Positions 8,601 to 39,892 of a stretch of DNA of 47,105 nucleotides are shown piece by piece. Every line of letters starts with the position of its first letter. Position 1 is the stretch's first letter. The stretch comes from a virus, in the IMG/VR virus record IMGVR_UViG_3300020122_000171, positions 1 through 47,105 of that record. One strand, given 5' to 3'. The notes under the pieces were generated by a model. It searched no databases and was not told where the DNA came from. It saw only the letters and a list, made by a program, of their open reading frames with translations. Both the position numbers and the translations under genes were made by a program.

Positions 8601-11600
8601 CTTGTTCTGTTTTCTTACCTTCTATTTCAGTAGCTTTATTAATAGCTTCTTCATAGTTTTGATAATCACGTTTCTCTTCACGTGCTACAATTGTACGGGC
8701 TAGTTTAGGAGTTAGATCTTTACCGGTTAATCTTTCAAAGGTTTGTTTAAATGCAGATTGTAATGATTGTCCTTTTGTTTCGTTTCCTAGCGATTCATTT
8801 TTGATGTAATCGGCAATATCCTGAGTAGTTATTTCTATTTCAGGAGTTGATATTTCCTGGGCCGTAACATCTAATGGTTGTGCTTTTTCGCGGATAAACC
8901 GTTTAGCTACAGTTTTTGATTTTTCATTTTTATCAATATATTTATCGAAATCCTTATTGTTAATAAAAATATTCGACTCCCTTATTATCTTATTCTTTTC
9001 ATTTTCTTTTTTAGGCTGATTTTCTAATTTAAGATAATAAATAGCTAGCTCTAATGGGTTTTCAGATTCGTATGCGATATGTCGCATGGCCTCTTCTTCT
9101 TCATTAAAATCAATATTCTGCTCTGTTGCTTTCTGTTCAGAAGTTTTACCTTTAGAAAAATCCTCCTCTTTTATTTTTTCTTCACTCTTTTTGGTGGACG
9201 TTTTCCCTTGCTTGCCTTGTTCCACTCCTCCACGTTCACTCCCTTCTTTTCCAGTTCCTCCTTGTTTGCGTTGAAGAACTTCCTTTGTGCTTCCGATTTG
9301 TACATCTGTTTCAGTTTTTAATTGATTAATAATAGTATTTAACGGTTGTGTTAAATCTATTCCACGCAAATCCACAATAACATCTTTCGCATAACCATCT
9401 CTGAATTTTTTAGTAATATCTTTTAATATATGTTTAAATCCAGATGTAGAACCGCCTGAAAACCCTTTCCACCTAGAAGACTCTTTAGAATAGTCAGATT
9501 TAATAGATGGGTCTGTAATTAAAGTAACTCTATTATTATCTACTCCCTGATTAAAGTGCATTATTTCATCAGGCTTGTATCCTTTTAATTTTTCTGGTGA
9601 ATCAAAACTTATAATTCTGTTTTTGTTTTCAATATTATTATTTGTTTCAGTTTTAGATTTAACATTAATTATTTCTGCATTGCCAACTTTTCCTGCATTA
9701 ATAAAATCTTCACGTGCTTTTTTATCCCATACTCCATTGTTCGTCTGTAGAGCATTAAATAACTTTATATTTTCGCCATGAGTAACAATAGCACTACCTT
9801 TTTCATTCTTTGCAGCAATAGCATTATATGCTTTAATATTCCTATTTTTAAAGGTGTTAAATGATTCTCCGATTTTCCAAACTTTCCCTTTTTTATCAGT
9901 ATATTCAGTAGCATCAAAATTATCTACAAAATATTTCTTAGGAAATACTTCATCCTTTTGTTGTACATAGTCACCAATATCCCATACATCAAATCCTTTC
10001 ACTCCTTTAATAGTTAATCCTTTTACTTTAGCTGCAACGCGTTTTGATGTTTCTGCTGCACGTTCAGTAGGTGAAGTGTATATTTTAGTTATACCTTCTT
10101 TTTTAATTTGATCTGCTGCTTTATTTGATGCTTGTTTGCCTTCTTCATTAAGTGGTATATCTGTTGTTCCACTGATCTTACCTGCTTTATCTTCGGCAGT
10201 ATCTCCGTGATGTACTACTAATAACTTATGAGTTGGTTGTGCTAATGTTAGCTGTTTAGCAGTATGAAAATTAGTAACTTGCAAGTGACCTAAAAGGTGC
10301 TTATTACCTTTATCCATTGTCCTAATTTCAATCTTATCACCATAAGGCACACCCTCTTTATTCATTACCTTCCCTTCTGGATTCCATTCTTCTTTAGGGA
10401 CTAGTTTTAACGCTACTTTATTTCCGACACGTACTCTACTTACAACACCATGTTTCCCTACATTAATAGCTGAACTGGTAATAGGATGTACAACTTCTTT
10501 CCCATTAACATTTACCATTACTCCTAATTGATTGTTGTACAGCTTGCCCCTGTCAACAACAATCCCTGGCGTAATTTTACTTTTAGTGGCGCGAAGTTTA
10601 TCGGATATTTCTTTATGAGAAATAGCAATAGCGTGTTCTTGTTTATTTTGTTGTTCAGGAATAACTTCTTCTTCGAGAGGTGTTATTACCTTTTCTTTTG
10701 AAACAATTGAAGGATTAATTTCTTTTCGTTTTTGCGCAATAACATCTACTAAATCAGGAGTTGATAATCCTTTCTCATCAGCTTCTTTCAAAAATGCATC
10801 TAAATCCTTTTCAGTAGTAGCTGTTTGTATTTGTCCTAATAAAGCATCGTGTTTATCTCCTGCTGATTCTTTTTGGACAGATTTTGTCCTTTTTTTAACT
10901 GCCTTTTCTTTAGGCTGTTTTTCTTCTTTTAGCTTATCAGCAATTGCTCTTTGTTGTGATTCAATAGACTTGCCTGTAATGGCAGAAATCTCATCACTAT
11001 TAGCCCTTAATATTTTTTGAGTATCACGTAATGCAGCATGTGGAATAGTTCCTTCAATTTTACTATCAGGATCTAATTGTAAATTATCAATTTGAGCTTT
11101 TAAATTTTCATTGCTCCATGTTAAATCAAATACGCGTTTCTTTTGAGTATTGTCTAATTGAACACCTACATTTTCAACCTGCTTGTTATATTTACCAAAA
11201 GTGTTAATCTTTTGATTTGCTAAGTCATAATCATTTTGGGTAATAGTACCATTATCTTTAGCCCTTGCTAATTCCGCTTTGAGTCCTGATACATGCTCAT
11301 CACCTCTTATAACTGCTTCATAAGCACTTTGACTTTGCTCATTCTGTTTTTGCTTCATAGCGATATGCCCTCCACCGCCTGCCAACAATCCACCAATACC
11401 ACTATTAATCATTTCGCCAAACGACTCAGGAGAAAAGGCTTCCTTGCCGAACTTCCCTTCCCCTATTGCATGTCCTTCACCAAATAATTTATCATAAATC
11501 TCTGCTGAAGCATTTTGAGTTAATTGTTGTGCTACTTCTTCAGTTGCTTCTCCTGCTGCTGTTCCTGCTAATTTAGCTGCATATCTCTTACCGTATATAG

Positions 11601-12726
11601 TGCCCAATGACATTACTTCTTTATAGGCTTCATCAATGCCTTTTTGAGTAATATTGCCAGCTTCATCACGTTGTAACTTTTTAAGTACCTGGCGGCCTAT
11701 TAATTCCTTTTCTGTTTGAGCTGCCTCATTGCCAAGTATCTTACCTGAAAGACCAAGATTCATCTCAATAAATGCAAGTGGTAATGATACTAAACTACCA
11801 TACATAAATTTCTCTCTATCTTTTAATCCAGCAGCTTCGGCCATATCAAGTACATCTCCCATATTGATAGTAGCACTTGCTAAAACTTGTTTAGCAGTTA
11901 ATGCTGCTTTCTCTGATAGTACTGCTCCTTCTGCTACTGTTCCTAGCCCTCCTGTTAAAGCATTCGCTGCCACAAATTGTAATATGCTGCTTGCTGCTTG
12001 TGAAATATTTCCTGCTACATTGTCAGTAGTAAAATTAAAACGTGAAGGATCAAGTATATCTTTAAATGACTTAACTCCTTCAGTATTAAATAATGCTTCA
12101 TTTGATTTAGCACTTGTATTTGCTTCCAATGCTTTTAACCGTTCTTTCCCACTTTTATACCATTCAGGTTCTTTACCTGTAACAAATGTTTGACCCATCG
12201 CTCCTACATCTTCTATTGCCCCTATAAACTGAGGGATAGAATTAAGCAAGTTTTTGCTTATGGTAGTTAATGGATGGTCATCATCAGCAGATTGTTGACT
12301 TCCCCATACACTTTCTACATTAACACTTTTAGGTGGTTTTTCTCCTGGTTTTAGTGGAATAGGCAATCCAGTTTCAGGACTTTTATACCATGTCTGAAAC
12401 CCTTCTTGTAATGGATGTTCTCCCGATACAGTTTTGATAGCATCGTCCAATTTTGTTTCGTCAACATACGGCGCTATTGTTTTAAGATATTTTTTCTCAT
12501 CATCATTAACACCGCCAATAAAATCTAATGCTTCAATTTTATCATTTAATTTTTGAGTACGATCATCAATGAGTGTAGATAACTCATGCCCTTGTGATAA
12601 GGGTTCTAATACATTCGTATTCCCAACAGGAGTTATCTTACCAACTGGCTTTGGTTGTTCTTCTCCATTATCAGATAAGCTAACGGGAGTAATTCTTCCA
12701 ATAGGGCGTATTTTAATCTCTCTCAT
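5644..12726 (-). CDS. giant polyvalent virion protein with histidine-phosphatase and zinc-metallopeptidase domains
   Basis: The 2360-residue protein is the longest in the window. Two similar short motifs open it (IGRITPV, VGKITPV). Residues about 230-460 are Ala/Gly-rich with helical hydrophobic stretches. A histidine-phosphatase domain lies at about 832-1010: VVHHGDT (H839-H840-G841), PLNEEGK, TSPTERAAET, GESFNTF and VTHGEN (H983). The usual catalytic Arg before His is replaced by His. A low-complexity charged linker (about 1130-1200) follows. A zincin motif HEYGH (1453-1457) has downstream Glu residues in AKEVLAEAIG (1500-1509) as the possible third ligand. The C-terminal 500 residues are helical with no clear family. 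It follows two other cargo-type genes. Proteins like this ('polyvalent proteins') are packed in the head and injected with DNA; that role is inferred. Confidence 0.75.
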   Translation of the reverse strand: MREIKIRPIGRITPVSLSDNGEEQPKPVGKITPVGNTNVLEPLSQGHELSTLIDDRTQKLNDKIEALDFIGGVNDDEKKYLKTIAPYVDETKLDDAIKTVSGEHPLQEGFQTWYKSPETGLPIPLKPGEKPPKSVNVESVWGSQQSADDDHPLTTISKNLLNSIPQFIGAIEDVGAMGQTFVTGKEPEWYKSGKERLKALEANTSAKSNEALFNTEGVKSFKDILDPSRFNFTTDNVAGNISQAASSILQFVAANALTGGLGTVAEGAVLSEKAALTAKQVLASATINMGDVLDMAEAAGLKDREKFMYGSLVSLPLAFIEMNLGLSGKILGNEAAQTEKELIGRQVLKKLQRDEAGNITQKGIDEAYKEVMSLGTIYGKRYAAKLAGTAAGEATEEVAQQLTQNASAEIYDKLFGEGHAIGEGKFGKEAFSPESFGEMINSGIGGLLAGGGGHIAMKQKQNEQSQSAYEAVIRGDEHVSGLKAELARAKDNGTITQNDYDLANQKINTFGKYNKQVENVGVQLDNTQKKRVFDLTWSNENLKAQIDNLQLDPDSKIEGTIPHAALRDTQKILRANSDEISAITGKSIESQQRAIADKLKEEKQPKEKAVKKRTKSVQKESAGDKHDALLGQIQTATTEKDLDAFLKEADEKGLSTPDLVDVIAQKRKEINPSIVSKEKVITPLEEEVIPEQQNKQEHAIAISHKEISDKLRATKSKITPGIVVDRGKLYNNQLGVMVNVNGKEVVHPITSSAINVGKHGVVSRVRVGNKVALKLVPKEEWNPEGKVMNKEGVPYGDKIEIRTMDKGNKHLLGHLQVTNFHTAKQLTLAQPTHKLLVVHHGDTAEDKAGKISGTTDIPLNEEGKQASNKAADQIKKEGITKIYTSPTERAAETSKRVAAKVKGLTIKGVKGFDVWDIGDYVQQKDEVFPKKYFVDNFDATEYTDKKGKVWKIGESFNTFKNRNIKAYNAIAAKNEKGSAIVTHGENIKLFNALQTNNGVWDKKAREDFINAGKVGNAEIINVKSKTETNNNIENKNRIISFDSPEKLKGYKPDEIMHFNQGVDNNRVTLITDPSIKSDYSKESSRWKGFSGGSTSGFKHILKDITKKFRDGYAKDVIVDLRGIDLTQPLNTIINQLKTETDVQIGSTKEVLQRKQGGTGKEGSERGGVEQGKQGKTSTKKSEEKIKEEDFSKGKTSEQKATEQNIDFNEEEEAMRHIAYESENPLELAIYYLKLENQPKKENEKNKIIRESNIFINNKDFDKYIDKNEKSKTVAKRFIREKAQPLDVTAQEISTPEIEITTQDIADYIKNESLGNETKGQSLQSAFKQTFERLTGKDLTPKLARTIVAREEKRDYQNYEEAINKATEIEGKKTEQAQKGYEKDIAKGKIVPQEQKKSTRSQKNIDKIIAQLQKSIPKATIIYDKNLKSAGQLSADGKTITINPDYAGLDTPIHEYGHILIDALGGTKNALINQGVNQLKESTLWADTKTLYPELDEDMLAKEVLAEAIGREGAKLFTDQSKQNKFVSWLSGLFYKLKSALGIDKNIAKKLASQLLSKKDLNITPEPTEQTQEQKIKASEEVNEDLHDEPKEKKSKSLAERKQVVIEQILNAKKFHGLSKANIKDVGDLLKLYKEKDLEELSLKDLKSLHANIIAAIGIAKIREKHPEFDYTIIPRKDISIVDIYMKALSDFSESHPEMQELARSFNEHFENSVEEKQKALQEIVAVEEKIIREYNKQHGILQAAKNYLNPFVDNSQYYNFVVGKNGVIEKGSEGYNKLTDIQKEFIDTYTKYKKKFKNLASEEIFGEEGIIKVNKTFDEFYHKSDAGILNAYLLYSSEVSEVIDGVRMYYTNTKGQIEKLPFSEIKQRIADQSNKNIISKVKAIYELTRYKKKATELIGNKQHEGEPIGSYDVTENGQFNISNGKIRSKFNKSFSNSREYSGDHGMALREFVKDMTFIENIQPVIPMIESIEHFNKLFGKEREHLTKWLDIWKKGVILKTPQESLGKGIDATMKFMRRWTQLRIMAFNIPAGAFNVLIGKYNNYRGSSLKVNKTGDIRYTKDFKKSQAVAKRYRLVSLEENEAPEKHIGKLFNLLAFGMTQAGENYIQTSGTIGQMTDTEWNWLDKEGNVTGKDAKEVKEREAILRKQFIVYKKNIADIQGKYSENEKRNFSHFELGRMLMQFKTWMPDTIRDRFAKRYININGDVKEGTLASLQRQGIKDIIQQMKDPKFFTSNDPEYVLLRRNLRSAMAMTTLFALWLGSSDDDDNKEYADVLHKAIIDMSFVMNTDQLSFLAGTPAASLGTITEALKVINAVITLEEYKSSGKGHEAGELKAFNTGTKLLPYGKFIQIGEKLMPDEE

Positions 12727-17192: not shown

Positions 17193-19850
17193 TTATAGTT
17201 TTTTACGGTAACGAGTTCTCAAATATACAATTCTTTTTACAGTATTTAATGATATAGTAGGATTAGATATGTAATTTTTAACAACTAGCTTAACTTTGAT
17301 ATAATGATCTAACATCCTTTCTTTACCTTTTGATAAGGCAACATTAAACCACCATGAATTATCAATATATCTAAAATTTTTATTATTAGATTGTATATTA
17401 TTATCGGATGCTATTCGTTTAGAATCAGTATAGATAACATCTGTAAATGCTGTATCGTTACCATATACTTCACAATTATCAAATACTTTTTCATCAATTG
17501 TATTATTGGCATCACGAGTTACAGCACCATTAGAAATAATCTCAATTTCATAAGGATAAGTTATACCAAAAAATTTACAAATATCTCCTTTCCAATGTTG
17601 CCAAACACTTGATTGGCTACCAGCTAATGCCCAATGTGTCGGATCTGATTCAGGAATAACAGGGCTTGGAGGTGTTGTAAAATTACTAATACAAACATAA
17701 TAATTGTTAATGTTAGTACTTGTTGGGATTGTACCATTATTTGAACCTAAAATCAATTGTCCTATAATATAATTAGTACTCCCTTGTATTTTTAATAAAT
17801 TATCATTAAACCCTGTACTATATAGTTTATTATTATGTTCTATATATAGTGCTGGGATAAATGAAAAAAATGACACAAATGCTTTTATTTTAGGATTCAT
17901 ACTAAATCCTATTGTAAAATCTAATACATCAACATTATTTGGCTTTATATTTTTAAATTTAAATGTCATTAATCCTAATTTATGACGAGCATCATATGTA
18001 CTAATAATACCATATCCATTTATAGTATCTTCTCTATTATAAATATTATTAGATGAATTCTCAACAGGAATAAAAATATTATTAAAAAATTGTGATAATC
18101 CTTTTACAATAGTTAAGTCTGCTGCTTGGCCATCAAAACTCATTATTAATAATGCTTTTCTTCTGAAATCAAAAAACGCAAAATGATCATCTCCTGTATA
18201 AACACTGAAAGTGTGTTGAGTACCATAAAACTTATCAAGATTATCAGCTCTTTGTCCTACTGTTCCTACTCCTAATTGTAATGCTTGACCTACAACACCA
18301 CCTGTCATTTCTCTCTCTTCAATAGGCATATAACCAACTCCTCGTTCTTGTAGATAGAAAAATCTATCATTGCCAATTAATCCTGCAACTAATTCACCAT
18401 GTAAAGCATCAACATTTTTAAAATTATTAATTAAAAATACACGCATATTATCAATATTTTCTCCTAAATTTTTCAACTCACTCCATCGTACCATAAATGG
18501 AAATCTATTTACATTTTTAAAATTAAGAGGTAATGCTGTATATGTAACTTGTGTTTTTTCAGATGAATAAACCCCATTATATATAAATTGTTCATCTCTA
18601 TAAGGATTGTAAATCCCTGGAGAGGCAAGAGCAGATGTATCTCTACTAATATGATCTCCCGCTCTTAATGACACATTAATATTACTTTCACATGGAAAGA
18701 TCAATGCATAAGACCATGTTCCTCGTCCTTTATCAGCTCCTCCAATCCCATTCCAATTATATACTGAAGCATCAATATCAGGAGTATCTCCTCCTGGATT
18801 TTCTCCAGGCTTAACATAATGTCTGGCTAATTCAACATGAGCTCTATCATATAAATTTATAAAACAATCTCCTCCAAATACTTGCATTCCATTTAATATA
18901 TATTTTCCGGTCGATGAATCATATATATCAGCAAGCAAATTTGCATTAATAGGAAGATAATGTCCTGTATATAAATATTGATTATTTGCTTTTGCTGCAT
19001 CTGATTGTCCTCCATATAATCCAGATATTCCTTTAGGTCTTACATAATTAATTAAAACATTGGTATACCCTGATGGATTAACATAATCAAGTTTATATTC
19101 AATTAATGTTCTAAATCCACCTGTTCCTACTCTTTTATCAAGTTCACTAGATGTATCTTGAACTGCTGGAATATCATAATTTTTAAAATATATACTAGAA
19201 AATGCTCCTTCTGCATTAGGGGCAAAAGAAAAATTTTGTTGTACTTCTGCTTTAAATTGATTAATAGGCAATGGATGTGTAAAAGCAAATTTATCCCAAA
19301 TATGTTCTGCCGATACACCATCATTATTTGGAATAGCATTAAGTACTGAAAGTCCAGCAACTGATTCTATATAATCACCTGATGTAGCAGGAGTAGATGT
19401 TAATTCAGAATAATTAAAATCTAATTCAGGGGACATTACAGAAATAATATTAGGCCCGAGTGACTCTCCTTTATTTTGATTGAAATCACTATAATAACCT
19501 CTAGGAAAACCAACTGGCACATATACATTAGCAGCATCACCATTTTTATGAATAATATCTAATAATAATCCCTGAGCAATAATTGTTTTATCTCTCTCAC
19601 ATCTCATTATAGAAATACCTGAAACTCTATCTTTAAATGCTGTAATATCAATACCTGAAACAATAACTGATAATACGTTTAATGATATTTGATATTGCGA
19701 ATCTACATTAGTTAAATTAAATCCTGTATCAGATTGAGAAGGCATAGTAACATCATCTAACCACTGTGCTCCAAATTGATTACCAAAATCATCAAAAAAT
19801 ACAGCAGCATAACGATATGTTTCTTTTCTCCAATGACCCTTAGCATACAT
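17193..19850 (-). CDS. tail nozzle/stabilisation protein, C-terminal part (downstream of an in-frame UGA)
   Basis: These 885 residues continue in the same frame as the 490-residue upstream piece; the frame is open from 20057, only the UGA at 20058-20060 separates them, and the joined protein would be 1445 residues. The bounds given start at the first Met (19850), which has no visible ribosome site and sits inside the motif YAKGHWRKETYRYAAVFFD. I recall that motif ('GE.YRFGIVFYD') from the middle of one-piece tail stabilisation proteins of crAss-like and related Bacteroidota phages. It contains no enzyme signature and is Asn/Tyr/Ile-rich and beta-like. It is therefore probably the C-terminal two-thirds of one large tail protein, not a separate gene. 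Confidence 0.7.
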   Translation of the reverse strand: MYAKGHWRKETYRYAAVFFDDFGNQFGAQWLDDVTMPSQSDTGFNLTNVDSQYQISLNVLSVIVSGIDITAFKDRVSGISIMRCERDKTIIAQGLLLDIIHKNGDAANVYVPVGFPRGYYSDFNQNKGESLGPNIISVMSPELDFNYSELTSTPATSGDYIESVAGLSVLNAIPNNDGVSAEHIWDKFAFTHPLPINQFKAEVQQNFSFAPNAEGAFSSIYFKNYDIPAVQDTSSELDKRVGTGGFRTLIEYKLDYVNPSGYTNVLINYVRPKGISGLYGGQSDAAKANNQYLYTGHYLPINANLLADIYDSSTGKYILNGMQVFGGDCFINLYDRAHVELARHYVKPGENPGGDTPDIDASVYNWNGIGGADKGRGTWSYALIFPCESNINVSLRAGDHISRDTSALASPGIYNPYRDEQFIYNGVYSSEKTQVTYTALPLNFKNVNRFPFMVRWSELKNLGENIDNMRVFLINNFKNVDALHGELVAGLIGNDRFFYLQERGVGYMPIEEREMTGGVVGQALQLGVGTVGQRADNLDKFYGTQHTFSVYTGDDHFAFFDFRRKALLIMSFDGQAADLTIVKGLSQFFNNIFIPVENSSNNIYNREDTINGYGIISTYDARHKLGLMTFKFKNIKPNNVDVLDFTIGFSMNPKIKAFVSFFSFIPALYIEHNNKLYSTGFNDNLLKIQGSTNYIIGQLILGSNNGTIPTSTNINNYYVCISNFTTPPSPVIPESDPTHWALAGSQSSVWQHWKGDICKFFGITYPYEIEIISNGAVTRDANNTIDEKVFDNCEVYGNDTAFTDVIYTDSKRIASDNNIQSNNKNFRYIDNSWWFNVALSKGKERMLDHYIKVKLVVKNYISNPTISLNTVKRIVYLRTRYRKKL

Positions 19851-20057
19851 TTGAGTTGCTGGAGATTTATAATCAAGATACTCATCATCTAATGGAATAA
19901 CTTTATAAACTGGTTGCCCACTATCTTTAATATATTGCTGAATACGAATGCATGCTCTTACTAATGAAGAGCCAGATATCGGTGTCCATCCACTTACTCC
20001 ATCAATACCTATAAATGTATCTCCTGTATTATAAGTAACTCCATGATATATTACAGG

Positions 20058-20060
20058 TCA
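20058..20060 (-). other. in-frame UGA stop in a leaky UGA-C context
   Basis: On the minus strand the codons read ATG ACT TGA CCT GTA. Upstream sequence encodes GGHYVVMT; downstream, in the same frame, PVIYHGVTYNTGDTF and more than 900 residues follow. The base after the stop is C, the context reported as weakest for termination at UGA. The UGA lies inside a small repeated domain and aligns with a Glu in the two paralogous copies. Confidence 0.75.
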
Positions 20061-21530
20061 AGTCATAACAACATAATGTCCTCCTGTTAATATACCAGAT
20101 GTGCTTATTCCTCCCGCATCTTGTAATGGGTGTCTAAATTTATAACCATCTGTTCCTGCACCTGAATTATCTGTTGGAATAGTATATATTGTTGGTGTTA
20201 TAATTGGAGTTCCAGCATATTTTGGTATTTCTTCTCTTTCTGATAAATTTAACATTAATTGACGTTGCTTCATTGTTACAATATCACGACATCGTATTAT
20301 AGAAGCATTAACATTTTGTAAATCAGAAGGTAATATTTTGGCTAAATCTTCTTGTCCTTGATGAACAATATACATTGATGATCCTGTAATTACATCATCA
20401 AATAATACATATCCTGCATCTATAGATTCATTTGGAGGGAAAAACGCACCTGTTGTATGTGATTCCAAAACAGCTACTCTTATTTTATCAAAAAAGGTAT
20501 CAATATTATTAATTTGTAAAATAATAGATTTAGTAGAATTAGCAACATCAGAACTGCTACCAACACCTTGATATTGTTGATACCCATCTCCTAGATATTT
20601 ATCAGTACTATGTATTAAATTACTTAATGGGGACCATGATGAATAATAACCATCATTAGTATATAATTGATAAGAATATTGATTTACACCCGTTATTACA
20701 GCCCCCGAATTTTTCATCCAAGATGTCCTAAAATAATCAACTGTTCCTAATTGTTTTGCTGGTGTATAATTTAAAAGATTATAATTTAAATATTTAACTA
20801 TTTTTATTTCAACGCTACCGGCAGAATAAGTTCCAATATATAAAACGGTAGATACACCATCATAAGTAAAAATATTATCTCCTCCATATGTAAACCCACC
20901 CCAAAACGTACTAAAATATGACATATTAGGCTTTATTCCATAAAATATATTTGATACAGATACTGCTGATGTTCCAGTAGTATTTAATACCATATATTGT
21001 TGTCCGGCAATTAAATTTGGAACAATAAATATTGTTGGAGGACTAGCAGGTGCATGTACTGTATCAATATCATCTAATAATGTTGATGCTAAATTTAATG
21101 ATCTGGGTTGATTGAAATAATCGGTCCAATATGCTCTATGATAAGCATCATTTTCTACCAATCCATATCCTCTTATAAGATGTGATTTGCTGAAATTTAA
21201 TTTAGAACTATGATATTTTATTTGATATGTTCCCTGACCACCATCAGTAAATGTTACTAATCCTATTTGAGATTGACCATTATTATCACAAGAAAACACT
21301 AATAAATCCATTCCCAATGCAAACCATCCGATAATAACCATCATATCAGCAGCATCGTAAAACGGAATAGTAAAGGCTGTTATTGTACCGTTTACACTTT
21401 CATGTGAATAGTTATTTCCTCCTTGAGCTATAAGATTTCCGTTTTTAGCCTCTCTATATGAATTAGCTGGTTGTAATGCTGGATCGGAATCGGAATCCAT
21501 CCCATTTTGAAGATAAATAATATCGTCCAT
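20058..21530 (-). CDS. tail nozzle/stabilisation protein, N-terminal part (ends at UGA)
   Basis: The 490-residue reading frame opens with MDDIIYLQNGMDSDSDPALQ followed by SYREAKNGN, like the 'NGM(D)SD.DP....GSYR.A.N' start I recall from tail stabilisation/tubular proteins of crAss-like phages. The body is beta-rich, Tyr/Asn/Ser-heavy. It ends with LTGGHYVVMT in the middle of a small domain, not at a natural domain boundary. The ring-protein gene 244 residues long lies 3 bases upstream. If translation stops here the product lacks two-thirds of the tail protein; if the UGA is read through, the full 1445 residues are made. Confidence 0.72.
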   Translation of the reverse strand: MDDIIYLQNGMDSDSDPALQPANSYREAKNGNLIAQGGNNYSHESVNGTITAFTIPFYDAADMMVIIGWFALGMDLLVFSCDNNGQSQIGLVTFTDGGQGTYQIKYHSSKLNFSKSHLIRGYGLVENDAYHRAYWTDYFNQPRSLNLASTLLDDIDTVHAPASPPTIFIVPNLIAGQQYMVLNTTGTSAVSVSNIFYGIKPNMSYFSTFWGGFTYGGDNIFTYDGVSTVLYIGTYSAGSVEIKIVKYLNYNLLNYTPAKQLGTVDYFRTSWMKNSGAVITGVNQYSYQLYTNDGYYSSWSPLSNLIHSTDKYLGDGYQQYQGVGSSSDVANSTKSIILQINNIDTFFDKIRVAVLESHTTGAFFPPNESIDAGYVLFDDVITGSSMYIVHQGQEDLAKILPSDLQNVNASIIRCRDIVTMKQRQLMLNLSEREEIPKYAGTPIITPTIYTIPTDNSGAGTDGYKFRHPLQDAGGISTSGILTGGHYVVMT

Positions 21531-29951: not shown

Positions 29952-30737
29952 TTAACTCTCTTCATTAGTTTGTTTAAGATTATTCTCTTTTTCATATTCA
30001 TCGACAGTGCCATCCATAATAGCTGCTGATAATCTTATTATCTCTTCATGTAATTGTGAAGGCATATCACTATCAATAACAAAAGATGAATTAATGACAG
30101 TTCCGCTGGTAAGTATAGTATTAACCGCCACAAACGTTGCTCCATCAATATATGTTATACCATTGTGCACAGCTTCATCATATACATAATATGTTTGTCC
30201 TATGACTAATGTTCCTGGCCCTGTAATTTTATTACTTTCCTGACCAATAGTTACAACAACAGGGGTGGCAATATAAAACATATTATATTGAGTAAAATTT
30301 CCACCTGTAGGCAAAAGAATAGTCCATCCTGTTAAACTGTCATTGAAATATGTTTTATCTGATTTAGGTCGCCTAAAAGGATTTCTGTTGATTAGCCCTT
30401 GTTCGTTATATGTTACTGGGCGGCAAGCATTGGTGATACCATCTACTGTGTTTTCTATTGAAAGGAGATAATAATATTGTGTAGGGTACGGTATAAAAGA
30501 TCCTGCTGGCGCTCCTGTGGCTCTGCGTATTAATGTAGATAATTCATTGCGTAATCGTTGTGATGTTTGTACTCCAAAACTACGTTGACGTTTAATGTTT
30601 TCAGTGCGATCATCTAATACTTTTTTTTGTGCTTGATTAATAGCATCATAATATCTGCTATCAGTGAAACGAGGCGACTTGACCCTATCAATAAGGTTGT
30701 CTATTGCCATTCGCATCTGTATCGCATTGTAGAACAT
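29952..30737 (-). CDS. head-tail adaptor/ring protein with inserted 'G..Y.V...HNG..Y' domain
   Basis: A 261-residue protein with a helical N-terminus (MRMAIDNLIDRVKSPRFTDS, YYDAINQAQKKVLDDRTE) like connector or ring proteins, then a beta part, and at about 172-215 the small domain TLVIGQTYYVY, AVHNGITY, ATFVAVNTIL shared with the 284-residue ring protein and the nozzle. The C-terminus is helical (HEEIIRLSAAIMDGTVDEYEKENN). Start could be 30737 or the Mets at 30716/30710, because a -7 element lies only 5 bases upstream of 30737. Confidence 0.55.
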   Translation of the reverse strand: MFYNAIQMRMAIDNLIDRVKSPRFTDSRYYDAINQAQKKVLDDRTENIKRQRSFGVQTSQRLRNELSTLIRRATGAPAGSFIPYPTQYYYLLSIENTVDGITNACRPVTYNEQGLINRNPFRRPKSDKTYFNDSLTGWTILLPTGGNFTQYNMFYIATPVVVTIGQESNKITGPGTLVIGQTYYVYDEAVHNGITYIDGATFVAVNTILTSGTVINSSFVIDSDMPSQLHEEIIRLSAAIMDGTVDEYEKENNLKQTNEES

Positions 30738-30741
30738 AAAA

Positions 30742-30749
30742 CAAAGATA
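30742..30749 (-). promoter_or_regulatory. possible -7 element (TATCTTTG)
   Basis: TATCTTTG on the minus strand fits TAnnTTTG and lies between a terminator and the adaptor gene. It is very close to the annotated start, so the transcript would be leaderless or use an internal Met. Confidence 0.3.
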
Positions 30750-30753
30750 AAAA

Positions 30754-30781
30754 AAAAACGAGACTGTTACATCTCGTTTTT
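30754..30781 (-). terminator. intrinsic terminator after the Acb2/Tad1-like gene
   Basis: AAAAACGAGA and TCTCGTTTTT form a 10-bp stem with an 8-base loop; on the minus strand it is followed by a run of T. It closes the transcript carrying the 391-residue protein and the Acb2-like gene. Confidence 0.85.
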
Positions 30782-30803: not shown

Positions 30804-31076
30804 TTAAAGTTTCAATCCATCAGCCGTTGGCTCAATTTTAGTTCCTGTACTGACATCTTTAGAAGAGGGATAAGGATTTGCTTCACCAAGCCTTTTTAAA
30901 TCCATACCTAGCCACATTACGCCTTCTTGAAGTTTAGTTATTGCTAAACTTCTTTCTCTGCTGTTTGGTAAATTTTTAATTCGTTGGATAATATCGTCTG
31001 TATCCTTACGTAATTGTTTATCATTTAATACCTCTTCTTCATAAGTAAAAGGTCTTTCATCTTTTTGAATTTCCAT
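30804..31076 (-). CDS. acb2: Acb2/Tad1-like cyclic-nucleotide sponge (anti-CBASS/anti-Thoeris)
   Basis: The 90-residue protein contains LPNSRERSLAITKLQEGVMW followed by LGMDLKRL and ends IEPTADGLKL. The 'SRERSLAITKLQE..MW' helix is the hallmark of the Acb2/Tad1 hairpin family (also T4 Vs.4). Proteins of this family bind cyclic di- and trinucleotides or gcADPR made by bacterial CBASS and Thoeris systems and so block the defence signal. The residues before it (DTDDIIQRIKN) would form the first helix. It follows the 391-residue gene by 24 bases and is followed by a strong terminator, so it shares a short transcript in the head module and would be expressed with virion genes. Family recognition is from memory of the motif; ligand choice cannot be told. 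Confidence 0.8.
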   Translation of the reverse strand: MEIQKDERPFTYEEEVLNDKQLRKDTDDIIQRIKNLPNSRERSLAITKLQEGVMWLGMDLKRLGEANPYPSSKDVSTGTKIEPTADGLKL

Positions 31077-31100: not shown

Positions 31101-32276
31101 TTATTTACCTTTTTTGTGATCTTCAATTTTTTGAATAAGTAGTTTTTTATTTGTTGTTGTTTTAGCTAGCGCAAACCCAATTTCAAATGCCATATTCTGT
31201 AATTTCTCTAATGAATAATCATGTAAATTAACAACAGATTCAACCATCTCAGGTTTTTTATTTGATTCTAAAAAAGCCTCCAACTTGTCATTTAATGCCT
31301 TAGTTTTAACTTTTTCTTCTTCAACTTCTTTTGTAAGTTTGTCTAATTTATTTAACTTCTCGTCTAAATCTTTATCAAGCACAAATCCTTTATCTTTCTG
31401 TTCCTGATTACGAGCAGTTTCTCCTTGTCCTGGATTAAGTTGAATAGGTTGTTTCTGTTCTTCTGTTGCGTGTTGTTTAAAGAATTGACTACGTTGTTTA
31501 GATTCTAAATCCATATTCATTAACAATGTAGGATTTTCAATCAATTTCTTTACTGCCATTGCCTCTGTAGATCCTAATGCATAAGTATCTTTCCACATAT
31601 ACCCATTAGTTACATCTAATGTGATTAATCCTGTGGCACGGGCACGATTAAATGCTGTTAACACATTCCTATTAGCATTATCATAAATATCTAAAAACTC
31701 ATTCGGCTCTTTTTCTGCTTTCTCAATAACGGCAGCTAATAAAGTATTTAAATTATTGTGCTCACTGGATACACCTAAATTAGTAGCCATATCATAAAGC
31801 TCTGCACCGATCATATTTTCTGCTATCTCAGAAGCCCTACGTCTTGCCTTAGACATACGTATAATTTTATTCGCTTCTTTATCCTTATCAATTTGTTTAT
31901 ACTTAGGTGTTCCTGATTGAAATGGTGAGCCCATCATACAAGGATGATGAGATATTACACACCACAATTTTCTATCACGTGGAATAGATAAATCAAATTG
32001 CATCATATCAGTTAATACGATACGATCAAATTTTAATTCACCGGTTTCTTTTTCAGTTCCTAAAGGAATACCAAATACTACTCCTGTTTCAGGATCAGTA
32101 ACTCGGCTAAAAGAAATTCTCGGTTGTTTTATCTGAGAGCGTTTAAGTGCTTCAATCAGAATGATGCCTGTTTGTTGGCATACTTTAGGGTTTTCAAAAT
32201 TTACAATCTTGTATTCAAAATTGTTGCCATCTATCATCTTGGTGAATAGAGGCATTTCTTCTGCTTGTTTTTCCAT
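31101..32276 (-). CDS. hypothetical head-module protein with coiled coil and SAP/HeH-like C-terminus
   Basis: A 391-residue protein. Residues 1-130 are mixed alpha/beta (FSRVTDPETGVVFGIPLG), 140-255 helical (SKARRRASEIAENMIGAELYD), 300-340 form a Lys/Glu-rich coiled coil, and the last 37 residues (YSLEKLQNMAFEIGF, TTNKKLLIQKIEDHKKG) resemble a SAP/HeH-type nucleic-acid-binding helix-extension-helix. It has its own consensus promoter after the capsid terminator and is followed by the Acb2-like gene. No known family name; a DNA- or RNA-associated head protein is possible. Confidence 0.45.
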   Translation of the reverse strand: MEKQAEEMPLFTKMIDGNNFEYKIVNFENPKVCQQTGIILIEALKRSQIKQPRISFSRVTDPETGVVFGIPLGTEKETGELKFDRIVLTDMMQFDLSIPRDRKLWCVISHHPCMMGSPFQSGTPKYKQIDKDKEANKIIRMSKARRRASEIAENMIGAELYDMATNLGVSSEHNNLNTLLAAVIEKAEKEPNEFLDIYDNANRNVLTAFNRARATGLITLDVTNGYMWKDTYALGSTEAMAVKKLIENPTLLMNMDLESKQRSQFFKQHATEEQKQPIQLNPGQGETARNQEQKDKGFVLDKDLDEKLNKLDKLTKEVEEEKVKTKALNDKLEAFLESNKKPEMVESVVNLHDYSLEKLQNMAFEIGFALAKTTTNKKLLIQKIEDHKKGK

Positions 32277-32327: not shown

Positions 32328-32360
32328 CAAATATATAAAAATAAATCATTGCAAAACAAA
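32328..32360 (-). promoter_or_regulatory. Bacteroidota-type promoter for the Acb2-like unit
   Basis: On the minus strand TTTG (32360-32357), 21 bases, then TATATTTG (32335-32328), an exact fit to the -33/-7 consensus. It lies right after the capsid-gene terminator and 52 bases before the 391-residue gene. Confidence 0.65.
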
Positions 32361-32385
32361 AAGCCCTAGATTTCTCCAGGGCTTT
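32360..32385 (-). terminator. intrinsic terminator after major capsid gene
   Basis: AAAGCCCT and AGGGCTTT form an 8-bp stem with a 10-base loop, followed on the minus strand by TTGTTTTG. It isolates the capsid transcript from the next unit. Confidence 0.82.
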
Positions 32386-32417
32386 CCGAACCAAACTATA
32401 CACACCTAACCTAATAC

Positions 32418-33896
32418 TTATGAGTGGTTTATAATACCACAAGAAGTAGTATTATAAACAATTGCTAAGTCTTCTTTAAGATACATATATTTCACTGCAT
32501 CTTCTTCTGACATGATTGTTTCCGGTGAACCGGTCATACCATTAATGTAACCTGTGATATTACCACGGCTGATACCATTAGCTCCTTTTGTCAACACATC
32601 AACATTTCTTTCGTTATCTGTTCCCATGTTTAAGAACAAATACATTGACGATTGTAAAAGTTTACCATTAGCACCACGAGCAGTAAACCTTGATTCATCA
32701 TCCCACATTGGATGTTTAATGAACCAAACAGTATTACCATTAACGTTAAATGATTTGTAATGGAATCCTACATTTACCTCTTGACCTCCAATATCAGAAG
32801 TTTGATTTGTTGGCTGAGTAATATAAACATGTTGATTACCGGCTAATTTTTGCATTTGAATTTGTGCATTAGCATAACCATCAGTTCCTGTAATACATAC
32901 CCATGACATACCAGTATATTTATTGGATTTTTTCTCCAACTGAATCATCATATCGGTAAAGTCATCGGCTGTTGCTTCACCAGAAGCTCCTGATCCGTAA
33001 GTTTCATTACCACCTGATATTTGTTCAATGATACCATCACCTTGAATAATTGGCAATCCAGTTTCTTTATCAATCAAACGAGATTGAGTCAATAACTGTC
33101 CTGTCAATGATTTCATAGTTGATTTACCATGAATTTTTTGGAACTCATCTTCCATCGTTGACTGAGCTGTAGCTTGACGTATTTGTTCATACATCCATCC
33201 TTTAGCTGCTCCTTTAGGCCCTTCATATTCTAACCACAGAATATTAGATGCAGCAGTACCGGTAATCTTTTCAGATTTACGTTGGATAGTAGTATGGTTA
33301 ATGAAGCTGTCAGGGAAATGACTACGAGAATAACCACGTAATGAACCTTCAGAATATGAAGTATAGCCTCCCATCACTGTTTTTACAGAACCTTGTCCTG
33401 CAACATGAGTGGTCCAGTTAAATACTGCACCGTCTGGTGATTTGAATTCATAAACATAATTACCTGCACTACCTGTTGGCAATCCCATAACGCGAGCTTG
33501 GAATCCTTGTCCATTGAATAAAGCATTCATACCTGGTACAAGATAATTATCCATTAAGGATAAAAAGAATGTACCATCAGCAGCAGTTGCACCAACTTGA
33601 GAGTTAATAACTGTATTTTTTTGAATACGACCCATAACATCAAATTGGTAAGCGTTGTTACCAATATTTTTGCTAGAATCTAAACGGTTTAATTTTGTAG
33701 GTACATTTTGAATACCATAAGGTCCAACAGCACCTGAAACAAGTAATGTTGTTACTGCACGTTGATCTACGTACTCTAATACTTTACGAATAGCTGGATA
33801 TTTAGCCTGATTTGCAATCAAATCGGCATCGGTGGTACATGTTTCTGTCCATTTACCACTTTTGATTTGTATTTTCCCTGGATTAAAAGTTGCCAT
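32418..33896 (-). CDS. major capsid protein (HK97-type, crAss-like)
   Basis: The 492-residue protein follows portal and scaffold-like genes and precedes a strong terminator, the usual place and isolation of a major capsid gene. Length and order agree with crAss-like capsid proteins. Features include a charged N-terminal arm region (KIQIKSGKWTETCTTDADLI), a long helix-rich middle with GWMYEQIRQATAQSTMEDEF, and VGFHYKSFNVNGNTVWFIKHPMWD, the long beta hairpin-like stretch typical of HK97 fold P-domains, and an aromatic C-terminus. No cleavage site is evident. Assignment rests on order, size and motif feel, not on a search. Confidence 0.78.
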   Translation of the reverse strand: MATFNPGKIQIKSGKWTETCTTDADLIANQAKYPAIRKVLEYVDQRAVTTLLVSGAVGPYGIQNVPTKLNRLDSSKNIGNNAYQFDVMGRIQKNTVINSQVGATAADGTFFLSLMDNYLVPGMNALFNGQGFQARVMGLPTGSAGNYVYEFKSPDGAVFNWTTHVAGQGSVKTVMGGYTSYSEGSLRGYSRSHFPDSFINHTTIQRKSEKITGTAASNILWLEYEGPKGAAKGWMYEQIRQATAQSTMEDEFQKIHGKSTMKSLTGQLLTQSRLIDKETGLPIIQGDGIIEQISGGNETYGSGASGEATADDFTDMMIQLEKKSNKYTGMSWVCITGTDGYANAQIQMQKLAGNQHVYITQPTNQTSDIGGQEVNVGFHYKSFNVNGNTVWFIKHPMWDDESRFTARGANGKLLQSSMYLFLNMGTDNERNVDVLTKGANGISRGNITGYINGMTGSPETIMSEEDAVKYMYLKEDLAIVYNTTSCGIINHS

Positions 33897-35506: not shown

Positions 35507-37729
35507 TTATGCTTGACCATTATAAAATTCATTATCGTGTTTATTCTGGTCGAGTATCAATTTGTCCATACTCTTTGATGAGTGAACTTCTTTCTCTACA
35601 CGTATTTTTTCATCAGCTTCCAAAATAATGTTTTGTTTAACGTTTTCTTCATTGGCTGCTCGATCTTCTGCTGCTATCTGACGTTGCATTTGTAATGCTG
35701 CCTGTTGTTGTGCTGCTGCTGCTTGTTGTTCAGATGTTTGATTTTGTTGACGTATCTTCTCCATCTCAGCGAATGCTTTATTTAATACTTTGTTAGCATC
35801 AGCTAATGTAGGGGATAATTCAAATGCAACCAAATCTTTATAACGTATATCTTTAGCATTTAATGCTGCCTCAGCATATCTATCCATCTTATCCCTAATA
35901 TCCAATTGCCGTCCACCATCTGTTAAATGGATACCGTAATCCTGAAATGCTATATCCTTAGTGATCTGCATAAACTTAAACTTATCATCACCAAGAATAA
36001 TTTTAGCTTTTTCAGTTTTATAAAGTCCCCAGGTAAGTTTAGTTGTTTCTACAACTTTTAATAATACTCGTTCCGTATATAGGGCCATCAAGAAAAACAT
36101 ACCTTCGGTAATAGTACGAGATGCTTGTATGGATGATTGTGCATTAGTAGCTGTTGATGTAGCCGCAATCTGACCTTCTCTATTCTCATTGATACCGGTA
36201 AGCCTATCAATACTATCCATTATTTCTCTCTTTAATGCAATAAGTTGAGGAAATGATGAAGACAAACCTAAATCAAATTCTTTAAGCATATCCGTGATCT
36301 GCAAATCTCTTCCTGCCATATTTGATTGGCCAGAAGCATCATAATCAATGAAACTATCATTAAATGCATTATACATTATATCTCTGATAGTTTTACCTTT
36401 AGGAAGTGCACCACGATTAAAGGCCAACACCTTTCCTTTGTTTTTATTCAAATCTTTTAAAATTTGAAACATAACGATATCAAACATATTGGAAAAGTTC
36501 TCCATTATCTCCATTAACGAAATGCGTTCACCTTGTACGGTATTAAACAAACATCCTGTATAAGAAAACCCAATGACCTCTGCGGGGTTGTCTGTTCTTC
36601 GCATGGTGAAATGCTTCTTTCTGCAATATGGCATTATAACGTGCCCTATTCTTACCCCTTCCCATATAACCTCTTTAAATTTTGTTTCTATTTGATATTT
36701 GCCAGCCGCGACATCTTTATCAATAAGTTCTTTGTTTTTCTCATACCATTCAGTATTAAGTTCTATCCGATATGAATCTGAACTGCTATCAAAGTCTAAT
36801 TGTGATTTTGTTTTAGGAGATATTTTATAGTATTCAGGCTCTACTGATTTCCATTCAAGGTAAATTACATTACAGCAAACATGACCATTGCGATAAAAAT
36901 ATTGATTACGATAAATTCCATTGTTAATAAAAGCATCTCCATTTTGGCGAATACTTTCAAGTAACTGTTGATCGGCTGGTGTTAATGAAAATGACATTAA
37001 TATATCGTGCACCGGCATTTCTTCAGCGTGGCCCATTAATGGACTACGTTCTAAAAAATAGTCGTCATCAATCTCTTCATAAATAGCAAATTTAGGATCT
37101 AATCGACGATAATTCTCATCACCATTATATTTAACCTCTACCTTTCCATAGCACATAGAAGCGATTTCTATATCCTGAAAATTCTTTGCTAGTTTATATT
37201 TAAGGTTTAAGGCAGGTATCTGTTCATCAAGTATTGTCTGCATCAATACTACATTCTTATCCTTAGTTGACAATTCAGCCCATTCAGAGTCTTCCATTGT
37301 ATTAGGGATACTCATCCCTTCTAGTGGATCAACGCCTACTTCATTAAGTTTACCAATAGCATCTTTAGCATGATAAGCTCCAAGCATCATCTCATAATTA
37401 TCTAATGCTGCTGTACGTGCTGATTCATTAGTGCAATAAACTTGTGCTTCTAATGGCCTACGTAAAAACTCGTTATTGAGTAAGTCTATTTTAGTACGGG
37501 AAACGCGATAAGAAATGTATTTAGTTCGGTTTTTCTTCCCGTATTGGGAAGTAAGATATGCTATTGAGGCAGGAGTAGTTTTACCATTATACACATTGTA
37601 TAATCTAACATATTTCTCTACTCTGTAATTTGCAAATTTTAATAACTGCTCGGCATATACAAAATGCTTTAAGCACCAATCTTTATCTTTTTGTATTTCG
37701 GGAATATTCTGATTCGGGAAATTTGCCAT
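35507..37729 (-). CDS. portal protein (crAss-like)
   Basis: The 740-residue protein directly follows TerL and precedes scaffold and capsid genes. Its N-terminal half has YVRLYNVYNG, YISYRVSRTKIDLLNNEFL and GLEMEDSEW-type helices, and the centre has MEIMENFSNMFDIVMFQILKDLNKNKG and LTGINENREGQIAATSTATNAQSSIQASR, the stem-helix and conserved 'R..G' element common in large portals of short-tailed phages. The last 90 residues are Gln/Ala-rich coiled coil (QQNQTSEQQAAAAQQQAAL), a barrel-like helix. No protease fusion. Confidence 0.85.
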   Translation of the reverse strand: MANFPNQNIPEIQKDKDWCLKHFVYAEQLLKFANYRVEKYVRLYNVYNGKTTPASIAYLTSQYGKKNRTKYISYRVSRTKIDLLNNEFLRRPLEAQVYCTNESARTAALDNYEMMLGAYHAKDAIGKLNEVGVDPLEGMSIPNTMEDSEWAELSTKDKNVVLMQTILDEQIPALNLKYKLAKNFQDIEIASMCYGKVEVKYNGDENYRRLDPKFAIYEEIDDDYFLERSPLMGHAEEMPVHDILMSFSLTPADQQLLESIRQNGDAFINNGIYRNQYFYRNGHVCCNVIYLEWKSVEPEYYKISPKTKSQLDFDSSSDSYRIELNTEWYEKNKELIDKDVAAGKYQIETKFKEVIWEGVRIGHVIMPYCRKKHFTMRRTDNPAEVIGFSYTGCLFNTVQGERISLMEIMENFSNMFDIVMFQILKDLNKNKGKVLAFNRGALPKGKTIRDIMYNAFNDSFIDYDASGQSNMAGRDLQITDMLKEFDLGLSSSFPQLIALKREIMDSIDRLTGINENREGQIAATSTATNAQSSIQASRTITEGMFFLMALYTERVLLKVVETTKLTWGLYKTEKAKIILGDDKFKFMQITKDIAFQDYGIHLTDGGRQLDIRDKMDRYAEAALNAKDIRYKDLVAFELSPTLADANKVLNKAFAEMEKIRQQNQTSEQQAAAAQQQAALQMQRQIAAEDRAANEENVKQNIILEADEKIRVEKEVHSSKSMDKLILDQNKHDNEFYNGQA

Positions 37730-37789: not shown

Positions 37790-39892
37790 CTATTCAAAGT
37801 TGTCTTCAACTTCATAATTTTCATCATTCATTTGTTCATTCATCATTTTTAATTCTAGGGCCCGCAAATCAGGATCTCCATGTTTCATATACTCCTCTTT
37901 CAACTTCCCTTTCATAACAATATTACCCTCTGCATCTTCATCATACTCAGGATAAGCATAAGGATCATGTTTTTGCAATCTGGCTTCATCATACACTTCC
38001 ATCCCATTGGACATGTGTTGCATCAACGCTATACCTAAAGCATCAACACTATCATTATCGCTATCCTTTTCTAATACATCATAATTTAATGCCTCTTCCA
38101 ATATCTGAGGAAACCATATCGTTCTTCCGTGATCTATCAAATACGACTGTAACAATGATACCATGATAGGTTTGGAGTAACTATTAAGTGATACCCAATA
38201 TTCATGTTGCTGCTCTGAATTTTCACTTTCAAACTTTTTCGGGCGTTTAGCTAAATATATTTCACATCCCGCCTCTTTGAAATATTGTATGATACCTGGC
38301 GTTCTAACGTCACCCAATGTGTTATATTTTAAATCATAATAGATAGCTGACTTCATACACATCTCATAAAACTTTTCCTTACGTGCCGGTCTACAACGTA
38401 TCAATAATACAGGAGTCATTTTATCAATATCATTAATATTGTGATTCCTTCTTAGAACGACCATTGAGCCAAGAGATTTTGAGGTTAACGACTTGTCTAA
38501 ATCGTAACTGTCGATCCCTGCAACGTCAAGATTTCTGTATCCTCCTCTTGGATGACCTGTATGCAATATCATTACACATTCATTCTCATCATCATCTTCT
38601 TTTGCCGGAATAGCTATCACCTGACGTGGTAATACTATTTGATTATTTTCAATTTTATATTCTAACCTGTATTTACCGTACCTTTTATCTTGAGATAAAA
38701 TATCGTACATCTGATTGTTTAATACCTCAACAGGAAAATCATTGGAAGCCGCACGTCTGAACACCTCCTTAATATCTATTGGATTATCTTTACAATATTC
38801 CCAATAGTTGGTCATATTCTTTGACTTTAATAAAATTTTCTTCTCCTGTTCAATTATCTGTAATGCCCTCTTCTCATCTTCCATTCCAACTCGCTGGTAA
38901 TCAGGTATATGTGAAATATTGGGAACGTCCTCTATTAAGTTTCCACTTCCATCAGTTGAACCTGCAACACATGGTCTAAAATATTTAGTTCCACTGATAA
39001 AATAACGCAAGGCATTGAAGTGTTCATAGTTATGCCAAACTTCTTCAAAACCCTTACTACCACTCTTTATATTACCACCTGTTCCATACCAGAATTCAGT
39101 TCCATATTGGATGTTCCCATCCATCACACAGGCCTTAGTTGCTTGATGAGTTTTAATTAAATTATCAAATTCTCCTGACTCCTCATAAACAACATCATTT
39201 AAATATTTTCCTTTAAACACTTCCGGATCTTTAAACATAGTCCTAACATAAATAGAATTTTTAGTTCCCATATCGGTCCAATCACCATCTTCTCCCTTTT
39301 GTTCCCATCCGGCTATAATATCATCATACGTCTTTGATAATTTACGGACCTTAAACTCTGGGCACATTAAAGAATCAATATAAAGCCATTTATCCAAAAA
39401 GTCTTCTGAGTATTCTTTCTTACCTGCTGCTATGCCAGCATGGTAATTTGGAAGGAATCTATATCCATGATCTATAATACCGCTCATTACAACTGACACT
39501 CCTTTACGTCTTCCTTTAGGAGCTATAATATTTTTACGCAACCTCTTTGCTTCTTCTACCAATAAGAAAAACTCATACTGATAATCTACATATTCAGGAT
39601 AGAATGCTCCCCCACCTTTCACAGATGATGTTTTACAAAAATTTAAAAAATGGTAATATCTGCCAGGTATAAATACTCCTGCGGTGGTATATCCATTAAT
39701 ACAATAATATACTTGCTCTTCCCAATACTCTCTCCATGCCGGTGTTCCTATTACTGATTTATTAACTGAGCTATCGGCGTATGCGGGTATTCCCCACTTG
39801 GGAATAGGGGCCGCACAGAAACCCTTTGGCTTTAAAAATGGGCGAACTAATGGATAAGATGATATTATAGGGGGTGATAATATTAATGTCAT
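37790..39892 (-). CDS. terL: terminase large subunit
   Basis: The 700-residue protein is the packaging motor: ATPase plus headful nuclease. An Arg-rich Walker A-like loop NIIAPKGRRKGVS lies at 121-133 and Walker B LNDVVYEESGEF at 231-242 (E237/E238 catalytic). The RNase-H-like nuclease begins near NLDVAGIDSYDLD (about 453-465, Asp ligands) and its last Asp motif is DSVDALGIALMQHM (about 613). The P-loop lacks the usual GKS/T and reads KGVS, as I recall for crAss-like terminases. The gene ends with TAG, so TAG is a true stop in this genome. It abuts the upstream gene with no gap. Confidence 0.92.
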   Translation of the reverse strand: MTLILSPPIISSYPLVRPFLKPKGFCAAPIPKWGIPAYADSSVNKSVIGTPAWREYWEEQVYYCINGYTTAGVFIPGRYYHFLNFCKTSSVKGGGAFYPEYVDYQYEFFLLVEEAKRLRKNIIAPKGRRKGVSVVMSGIIDHGYRFLPNYHAGIAAGKKEYSEDFLDKWLYIDSLMCPEFKVRKLSKTYDDIIAGWEQKGEDGDWTDMGTKNSIYVRTMFKDPEVFKGKYLNDVVYEESGEFDNLIKTHQATKACVMDGNIQYGTEFWYGTGGNIKSGSKGFEEVWHNYEHFNALRYFISGTKYFRPCVAGSTDGSGNLIEDVPNISHIPDYQRVGMEDEKRALQIIEQEKKILLKSKNMTNYWEYCKDNPIDIKEVFRRAASNDFPVEVLNNQMYDILSQDKRYGKYRLEYKIENNQIVLPRQVIAIPAKEDDDENECVMILHTGHPRGGYRNLDVAGIDSYDLDKSLTSKSLGSMVVLRRNHNINDIDKMTPVLLIRCRPARKEKFYEMCMKSAIYYDLKYNTLGDVRTPGIIQYFKEAGCEIYLAKRPKKFESENSEQQHEYWVSLNSYSKPIMVSLLQSYLIDHGRTIWFPQILEEALNYDVLEKDSDNDSVDALGIALMQHMSNGMEVYDEARLQKHDPYAYPEYDEDAEGNIVMKGKLKEEYMKHGDPDLRALELKMMNEQMNDENYEVEDNFE

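Follow-up and report, generated by a model that had tools for sequence, protein, structure and literature searches.

The usual picture of sponges for nucleotide immune signals is of genes expressed early, ahead of the host defense. The locus analyzed here raises the question of what a gene resembling such sponges does among the head genes of a phage, and when it is made. The window, meaning the whole stretch of DNA analyzed, is one IMG/VR record of class linear and 47,105 bases, and it carries a single hairpin gene. The reading we favor, which we consider fairly likely, is that its 90-residue product is a phage anti-defense sponge of the Acb2/Tad1 hairpin family that is made late. The hairpin sponge family is known, and the protein represents a subfamily that combines the hairpin with a tail of its own; what is noteworthy is that late head and packaging transcripts have captured such genes repeatedly.

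The 90-residue protein belongs to the Acb2/Tad1 hairpin family

30804–31076, minus strand: putative nucleotide-signal sponge, an Acb2/Tad1-hairpin protein of 90 aa (PF24729 at 36 bits, 61 IMG/VR relatives, purifying selection, AlphaFold2 hairpin)

The open reading frame starts with ATG and encodes 90 residues. The single Pfam-A family matched by the protein is PF24729 (Acb2_Tad1_hairpin), at 36 bits (E 7.9e-9) and above the curated cut-off of 27 bits. The first-pass annotation had placed the protein in this family and named a profile comparison as the check; that comparison found the family. The protein also matches phrog_1454 and phrog_15810 in PHROGs, the subfamily profile matches the solved Tad1 structure 8kbb (E 3.4e-5), and searches of PADLOC and NCBIfam with the protein gave no match. 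Relatives are encoded at 61 IMG/VR loci (numbered L here), with identities of up to 87%, and in four annotated phages: cr111_1, ctcc615, Bacteroides phage BK735P4 and Tenacibaculum phage Gundel_1. PF24729 scores over its cut-off in 44 of 50 related records.

Comparison of the window protein with its L001 homolog gives pS = 0.74 and pN = 0.14, and the reading frame is under strong purifying selection. The 84–89% identity to the L001 and L002 proteins reflects constraint; a recent exchange of the gene among these phages was rejected as its cause because synonymous sites are saturated.

The hairpin is joined to a conserved tail

30915–30959, minus strand: R40-x6-T47-x6-M54 hairpin motif, common to Tad1 and Acb2 and near invariant among relatives
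30807–30878, minus strand: subfamily tail, residues 67–90, NPYPxSKD...IEPTADGLKL, with conservation equal to that of helix 2

AlphaFold2 predicts two long antiparallel helices at residues 12–34 and 40–62 (block pLDDT 91–98, mostly >90), with residues 1–11 unstructured and the tail uncertain. A Foldseek search of the PDB with this model returned nothing significant, a bare hairpin being uninformative as a query. The helix and tail sequences quoted in the first-pass annotation are both present in the product. Among 55 distinct relatives, R40 is conserved in 50, T47 in 52 and M54 in all 55. The R-x6-T-x6-M pattern is exact in the window protein, Tad1 chains 8kbb and 7uav, SBSphiJ7 Tad1, Acb2 8h2j (R67, T74 and M81 in chain numbering) and a Curtobacterium protein annotated as 'cyclic nucleotide sequestering protein'. 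We take the arginine and threonine of helix 2 (R40 and T47) to be the contacts for cyclic trinucleotides.

Helix 2 and the tail each have a mean conservation of 0.85, compared with 0.68 for helix 1. The 24-residue tail is absent from Vs.4 and from the C-termini of the solved Acb2 and Tad1 chains; the IEPTADGLKL ending that had been offered as a family feature is thus present but marks a Bacteroidota-phage subfamily, not Acb2 or Tad1 generally. At the other end, the N-terminal IKGY motif of Acb2 is absent from the window protein and all other members extracted, and a Tad1-type N-terminal β-sheet domain is also absent, the window protein beginning 11 residues before helix 1. The hairpin proteins of L060 and L061 have lost the R and T and retain the tail as NPYPSSKD...EPTSDGLKM, a pattern that points to a separate tail function, one that may be independent of the hairpin.

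The gene is an addition to a crassvirus head module

37790–39892, minus strand: terminase large subunit, TerL (phrog_6681, E 1.9e-64)
35507–37729, minus strand: portal protein (phrog_6547, E 1.6e-51)
32418–33896, minus strand: major capsid protein, crassvirus type (PF23898, 82.9 bits)
31101–32276, minus strand: 391-aa protein at the crAss001 gp33 position (L067 homolog, synteny, weak profile)
29952–30737, minus strand: ring/adaptor protein of 261 aa, crAss ring 3/4 like (15.6 bits, below the cut-off of 27; crAss001 gp34 position)

The window phage, a crAss-like phage of the gut type, is a member of the Crassvirales: the order of its capsid, portal, TerL, muzzle and ring genes is that of crassviruses (markers PF23898, phrog_6547, phrog_6681, PF25731, PF24228 and PF25702). 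The crassvirus-type block also holds ring proteins 1 and 2 and the muzzle. The gene order is capsid, 391-aa protein, sponge and ring-like 261-aa protein, which bears out the earlier placement of the gene inside the head module. The corresponding crAss001 genes are gp32 (capsid), gp33 and gp34 (ring); the last two lie 4 bases apart and have no counterpart of the sponge between them. By this comparison, the putative sponge gene is an addition that separates the ring gene from the gene at the gp33 position.

The nearest phage is L067 (capsid 69%, TerL 68% and 391-aa homolog 43% identical). The profile match of the 391-aa protein for the gp33 role is weak (E 0.06). Its AlphaFold model, for which two sequences were available, scores poorly (pLDDT 57), and a fold search with it gave no informative match. 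A pattern search for its relatives found none, although L067 encodes one. Assignment as the crAss001 auxiliary capsid protein gp36 was rejected because there was no match; the gp33 position fits better, with a weak profile only. A portal-based search for further relatives of the window phage added one weak fragment only, and a genome scan for hosts gave three MAG contigs with a match, two of them Bacteroidales.

Two other features of the window were observed. Two ORFs separated by a 207-nt gap appear to encode the muzzle protein (window 17193–21530; N part 20058–21530, C part 17193–19850), which may reflect a frameshift, a true split or an assembly error. A 2360-aa protein (5644–12726) encoded downstream of the muzzle, at the cargo-gene position, has a histidine phosphatase domain at residues 836–990 (PF00300, 87.9 bits).

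The gene lies on a short predicted transcript that is probably late

32357–32388, minus strand: terminator of the capsid transcript (fold −21.0 kcal/mol), its T-run overlapping the −33 box of the next promoter
32328–32360, minus strand: Bacteroidota-type promoter TTTG-N21-TATATTTG for the transcript of the 391-aa protein and sponge (pattern match, junction, gap enrichment)
30754–30781, minus strand: terminator ending the two-gene transcript, its T-run leading straight into TATCTTTG
30742–30749, minus strand: promoter box TATCTTTG of the ring gene, directly after the terminator

The first-pass annotation had described a short transcript common to the 391-aa protein and the sponge, bounded by a promoter and a terminator. 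Promoter and terminator anatomy and crAss001 synteny support this predicted unit; the terminator at 30754–30781 was confirmed, and a second terminator, at 32357–32388, had been missed. The 24 bases preceding the sponge gene lack a promoter box. The promoter at 32360–32328 matches TTTG-N21-TAnnTTTG, and TAnnTTTG occurs six times on the coding strand of the late intergenic gaps (1048 nt) and never on the other, with 0.9 expected; 0 of 2000 dinucleotide shuffles reach six. The full promoter pattern in a scan of the whole window was found 5 times versus 2.8 expected, which is not significant. Terminators follow the capsid gene in L067 (−20.8 kcal/mol), the divergent crAss-like fragment L036 (−21.4) and crAss001 (−23.4), and the terminator-promoter junction behind the capsid gene recurs in L067 and L036. 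The TAnnTTTG box of the ring gene ends 4 bases before the ATG in the window (30737–30749) and in L067 (9880–9892), which suggests that the late mRNA of the ring gene is leaderless or nearly so in both phages.

Late genes of the Crassvirales (terminase, structural and most cargo genes) are thought to be read by the host RNA polymerase and early genes by a virion RNA polymerase (PMC10136315). A host-type promoter and host reading of crassvirus late genes together suggest late expression, so the gene is probably a late gene transcribed by the host RNA polymerase; the junctions and the TAnnTTTG enrichment likewise support the late timing that had been proposed. The cr111_1 and ctcc615 copies sit in replication/nucleotide modules, and late timing therefore does not extend to every member of the subfamily.

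Sponge genes vary in type and position among phages

In L067 the slot is empty: 66 bases without a gene separate the ring gene from the 391-aa homolog, and a PF24729 search over the whole 20-kb record found no hairpin gene. The L067 phage instead encodes Tad2, with a clear match of 50 bits (L077 4354–4752; G046:C1:17353–17751), at a distance of about 3.3 kb on the upstream side of TerL; no Tad2 was found in the window record. Sponge type thus appears to have been swapped between these sister phages. L036 has the order TerL, portal, scaffold, capsid, 322-aa protein, sponge and Tad2-like gene; its slot sponge has 78 aa and is 71% identical, and the Tad2-like gene directly after it (7805–8050) scores 23.6 bits for PF11195, under the cut-off of 25. 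Two sponge types are adjacent within this head module.

Counting L036 itself, 35 loci encode a capsid related to that of L036, and in most of them the slot is empty. The L111 slot holds a different hairpin protein (38 bits) whose start codon is ambiguous because a stop follows MEQTQ, and L086 and L087 encode a degenerate hairpin-like protein two genes beyond the slot. Ten other records of this set have same-strand hairpin genes 1.8–3.0 kb upstream of TerL (L092, L094, L095, L098–L100, L102, L103, L108 and L112; records G058–G078), nine above cut-off and L103 below it at 16 bits. These belong to a different subfamily, with an N-terminus containing ..FNP.. in the six that were read.

Outside this set, close relatives of the window protein adjoin or lie a few genes from terminase, portal or major head genes in L017, L023, L046, L052 and L063; in L024 and L026 they precede TerL by about 1.1–1.2 kb. 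The cultured phage BK735P4, which infects Bacteroides ovatus, encodes a copy with 70% identity immediately behind the terminase gene. Others are beside replication or nucleotide genes (L011, L029, cr111_1 and ctcc615). Head/packaging placement is recurrent, neither unique nor universal, and such genes have been placed there repeatedly, in unrelated phages. A shared origin for the head-slot copies of the window and L036 is not favored, as each groups with copies from other contexts (support in a short alignment: window with L001, 99/81; L036 with L026 and L031, 96/87). None of the relatives has neighbor genes in common with the window, bar a few weak matches, mostly to divergent TerL or portal proteins, and each neighbor family occurs in at most 3 of 104 neighbor proteins. 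Neighbors that vary in almost every relative are what a mobile moron would be expected to have.

The TerL frame of the crAss-like L028 record (G023:C1:4265–5776) contains 11 in-frame TAG codons, which suggests TAG recoding. In cr111_1 (MT774387, W02) capsid and TerL matches each fall in two pieces about 0.9–1 kb apart, as if intron-interrupted.

This distribution bears on two other roles for the protein. It could be a small virion or assembly component whose tail docks on head or connector proteins and whose hairpin is a structural remnant. The head-module position, the transcript common with the gp33-position protein, a tail conserved as well as the hairpin and its retention in L060 and L061 without the hairpin R and T would all fit; we nevertheless regard this role as unlikely, for the gene is missing in the nearest relative, most close homologs lie in unrelated modules with no partner in common, and nothing equivalent lies between gp33 and gp34 of crAss001. 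Alternatively, the protein could bind nucleotides in phage metabolism or its regulation (dNTP or NAD+), and not in anti-defense, which would account for relatives that adjoin dUTPase, anaerobic ribonucleotide reductase, PAPS reductase and primase genes. The patchy presence of the gene, the adjacency of hairpin genes to Tad2 in L036 and Gundel_1, and site hopping are typical of anti-defense genes and make that role similarly improbable. To our knowledge, every characterized member of the hairpin family is a sponge.

Proposed function of the sponge

As an anti-defense sponge, the protein probably soaks up the alarm molecules that bacteria use for anti-phage suicide. Host RNA polymerase would read the unit of promoter, 391-aa gene, sponge gene and terminator while the capsid genes are expressed. 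The sponge would assemble through its hairpins into a hexamer, as in Acb2 and Tad1, and bind cyclic oligonucleotides without cleaving them. CBASS or Thoeris effectors would then stay off while capsid proteins, known triggers, accumulate. Since the Acb2 N-terminal motif and the Tad1 β domain are missing, the hairpin-core (channel) site for cyclic trinucleotides is the one expected to be retained, and the ligand range is not transferable from Acb2 and Tad1. The family-specific tail is a candidate to supply or replace the second (dinucleotide/gcADPR) site.

Thoeris is directly triggered by capsid proteins (PMC11312562), and loss of acb2 under CBASS selects capsid mutants (PMC10419184); producing sponge and capsid together would pair the antidote with its trigger. 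The recurrent placement among packaging and head genes suggests such a second strategy, in which the antidote is made when the trigger is made. Bacteria sense sponges through Panoptes (PMC12657218), which could explain both the patchy presence of the gene and the Tad2 swap.

A sponge made alongside the capsid might also be loaded into the virion of crass-like phages with the cargo proteins, through its conserved tail, and injected at the start of infection, disarming the next host before any phage gene is expressed; late expression and the roughly 5.5 MDa of cargo protein in crassviruses (PMC10172136) are compatible with this, but it is very improbable, as the published crAss001 cargo consists of large proteins from another gene block, there is no known packaging signal and the sequence does not single the protein out.

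Comparison with characterized sponges

A0A345BP16 of crAssphage ctcc615 is a member of the same subfamily (56% identity) that UniProt already names an Acb2/Tad1 hairpin domain protein; its gene is in a replication/nucleotide module, whereas the window gene is in the head module. Tad2 (DUF2829, PF11195) is also a sponge, of an unrelated fold and family, and replaces the hairpin gene in L067 and accompanies it in L036.

Acb2 (PaMx33 p26, PDB 8h2j) and T4 Vs.4 (PDB 7uq2) are, like the window protein, about 90 aa long with two long helices, and the R67-x6-T74-x6-M81 spacing of Acb2 equals that of the window protein. Acb2 has a short N-terminal helix with IKGY that contributes to its CDN pocket and that the window protein lacks, Vs.4 has D in place of the motif R, and the conserved tail is extra in the window protein relative to both. 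Tad1 (Thoeris anti-defense 1; PDB 8kbb and 7uav, SBSphiJ7) is the nearest solved structure by profile, with a near-identical hairpin motif, (C/S)REN..AITKL(Q/E)E..MW. The N-terminal β domain of Tad1, about 85 residues that help build the gcADPR/CDN pocket, is missing in the window protein, and the PTADGLKL tail of the window protein is not in Tad1. The subfamily is thereby a natural test of which parts of Acb2 and Tad1 are needed, having kept the hairpin only, with a short and extremely conserved tail in place of everything else.
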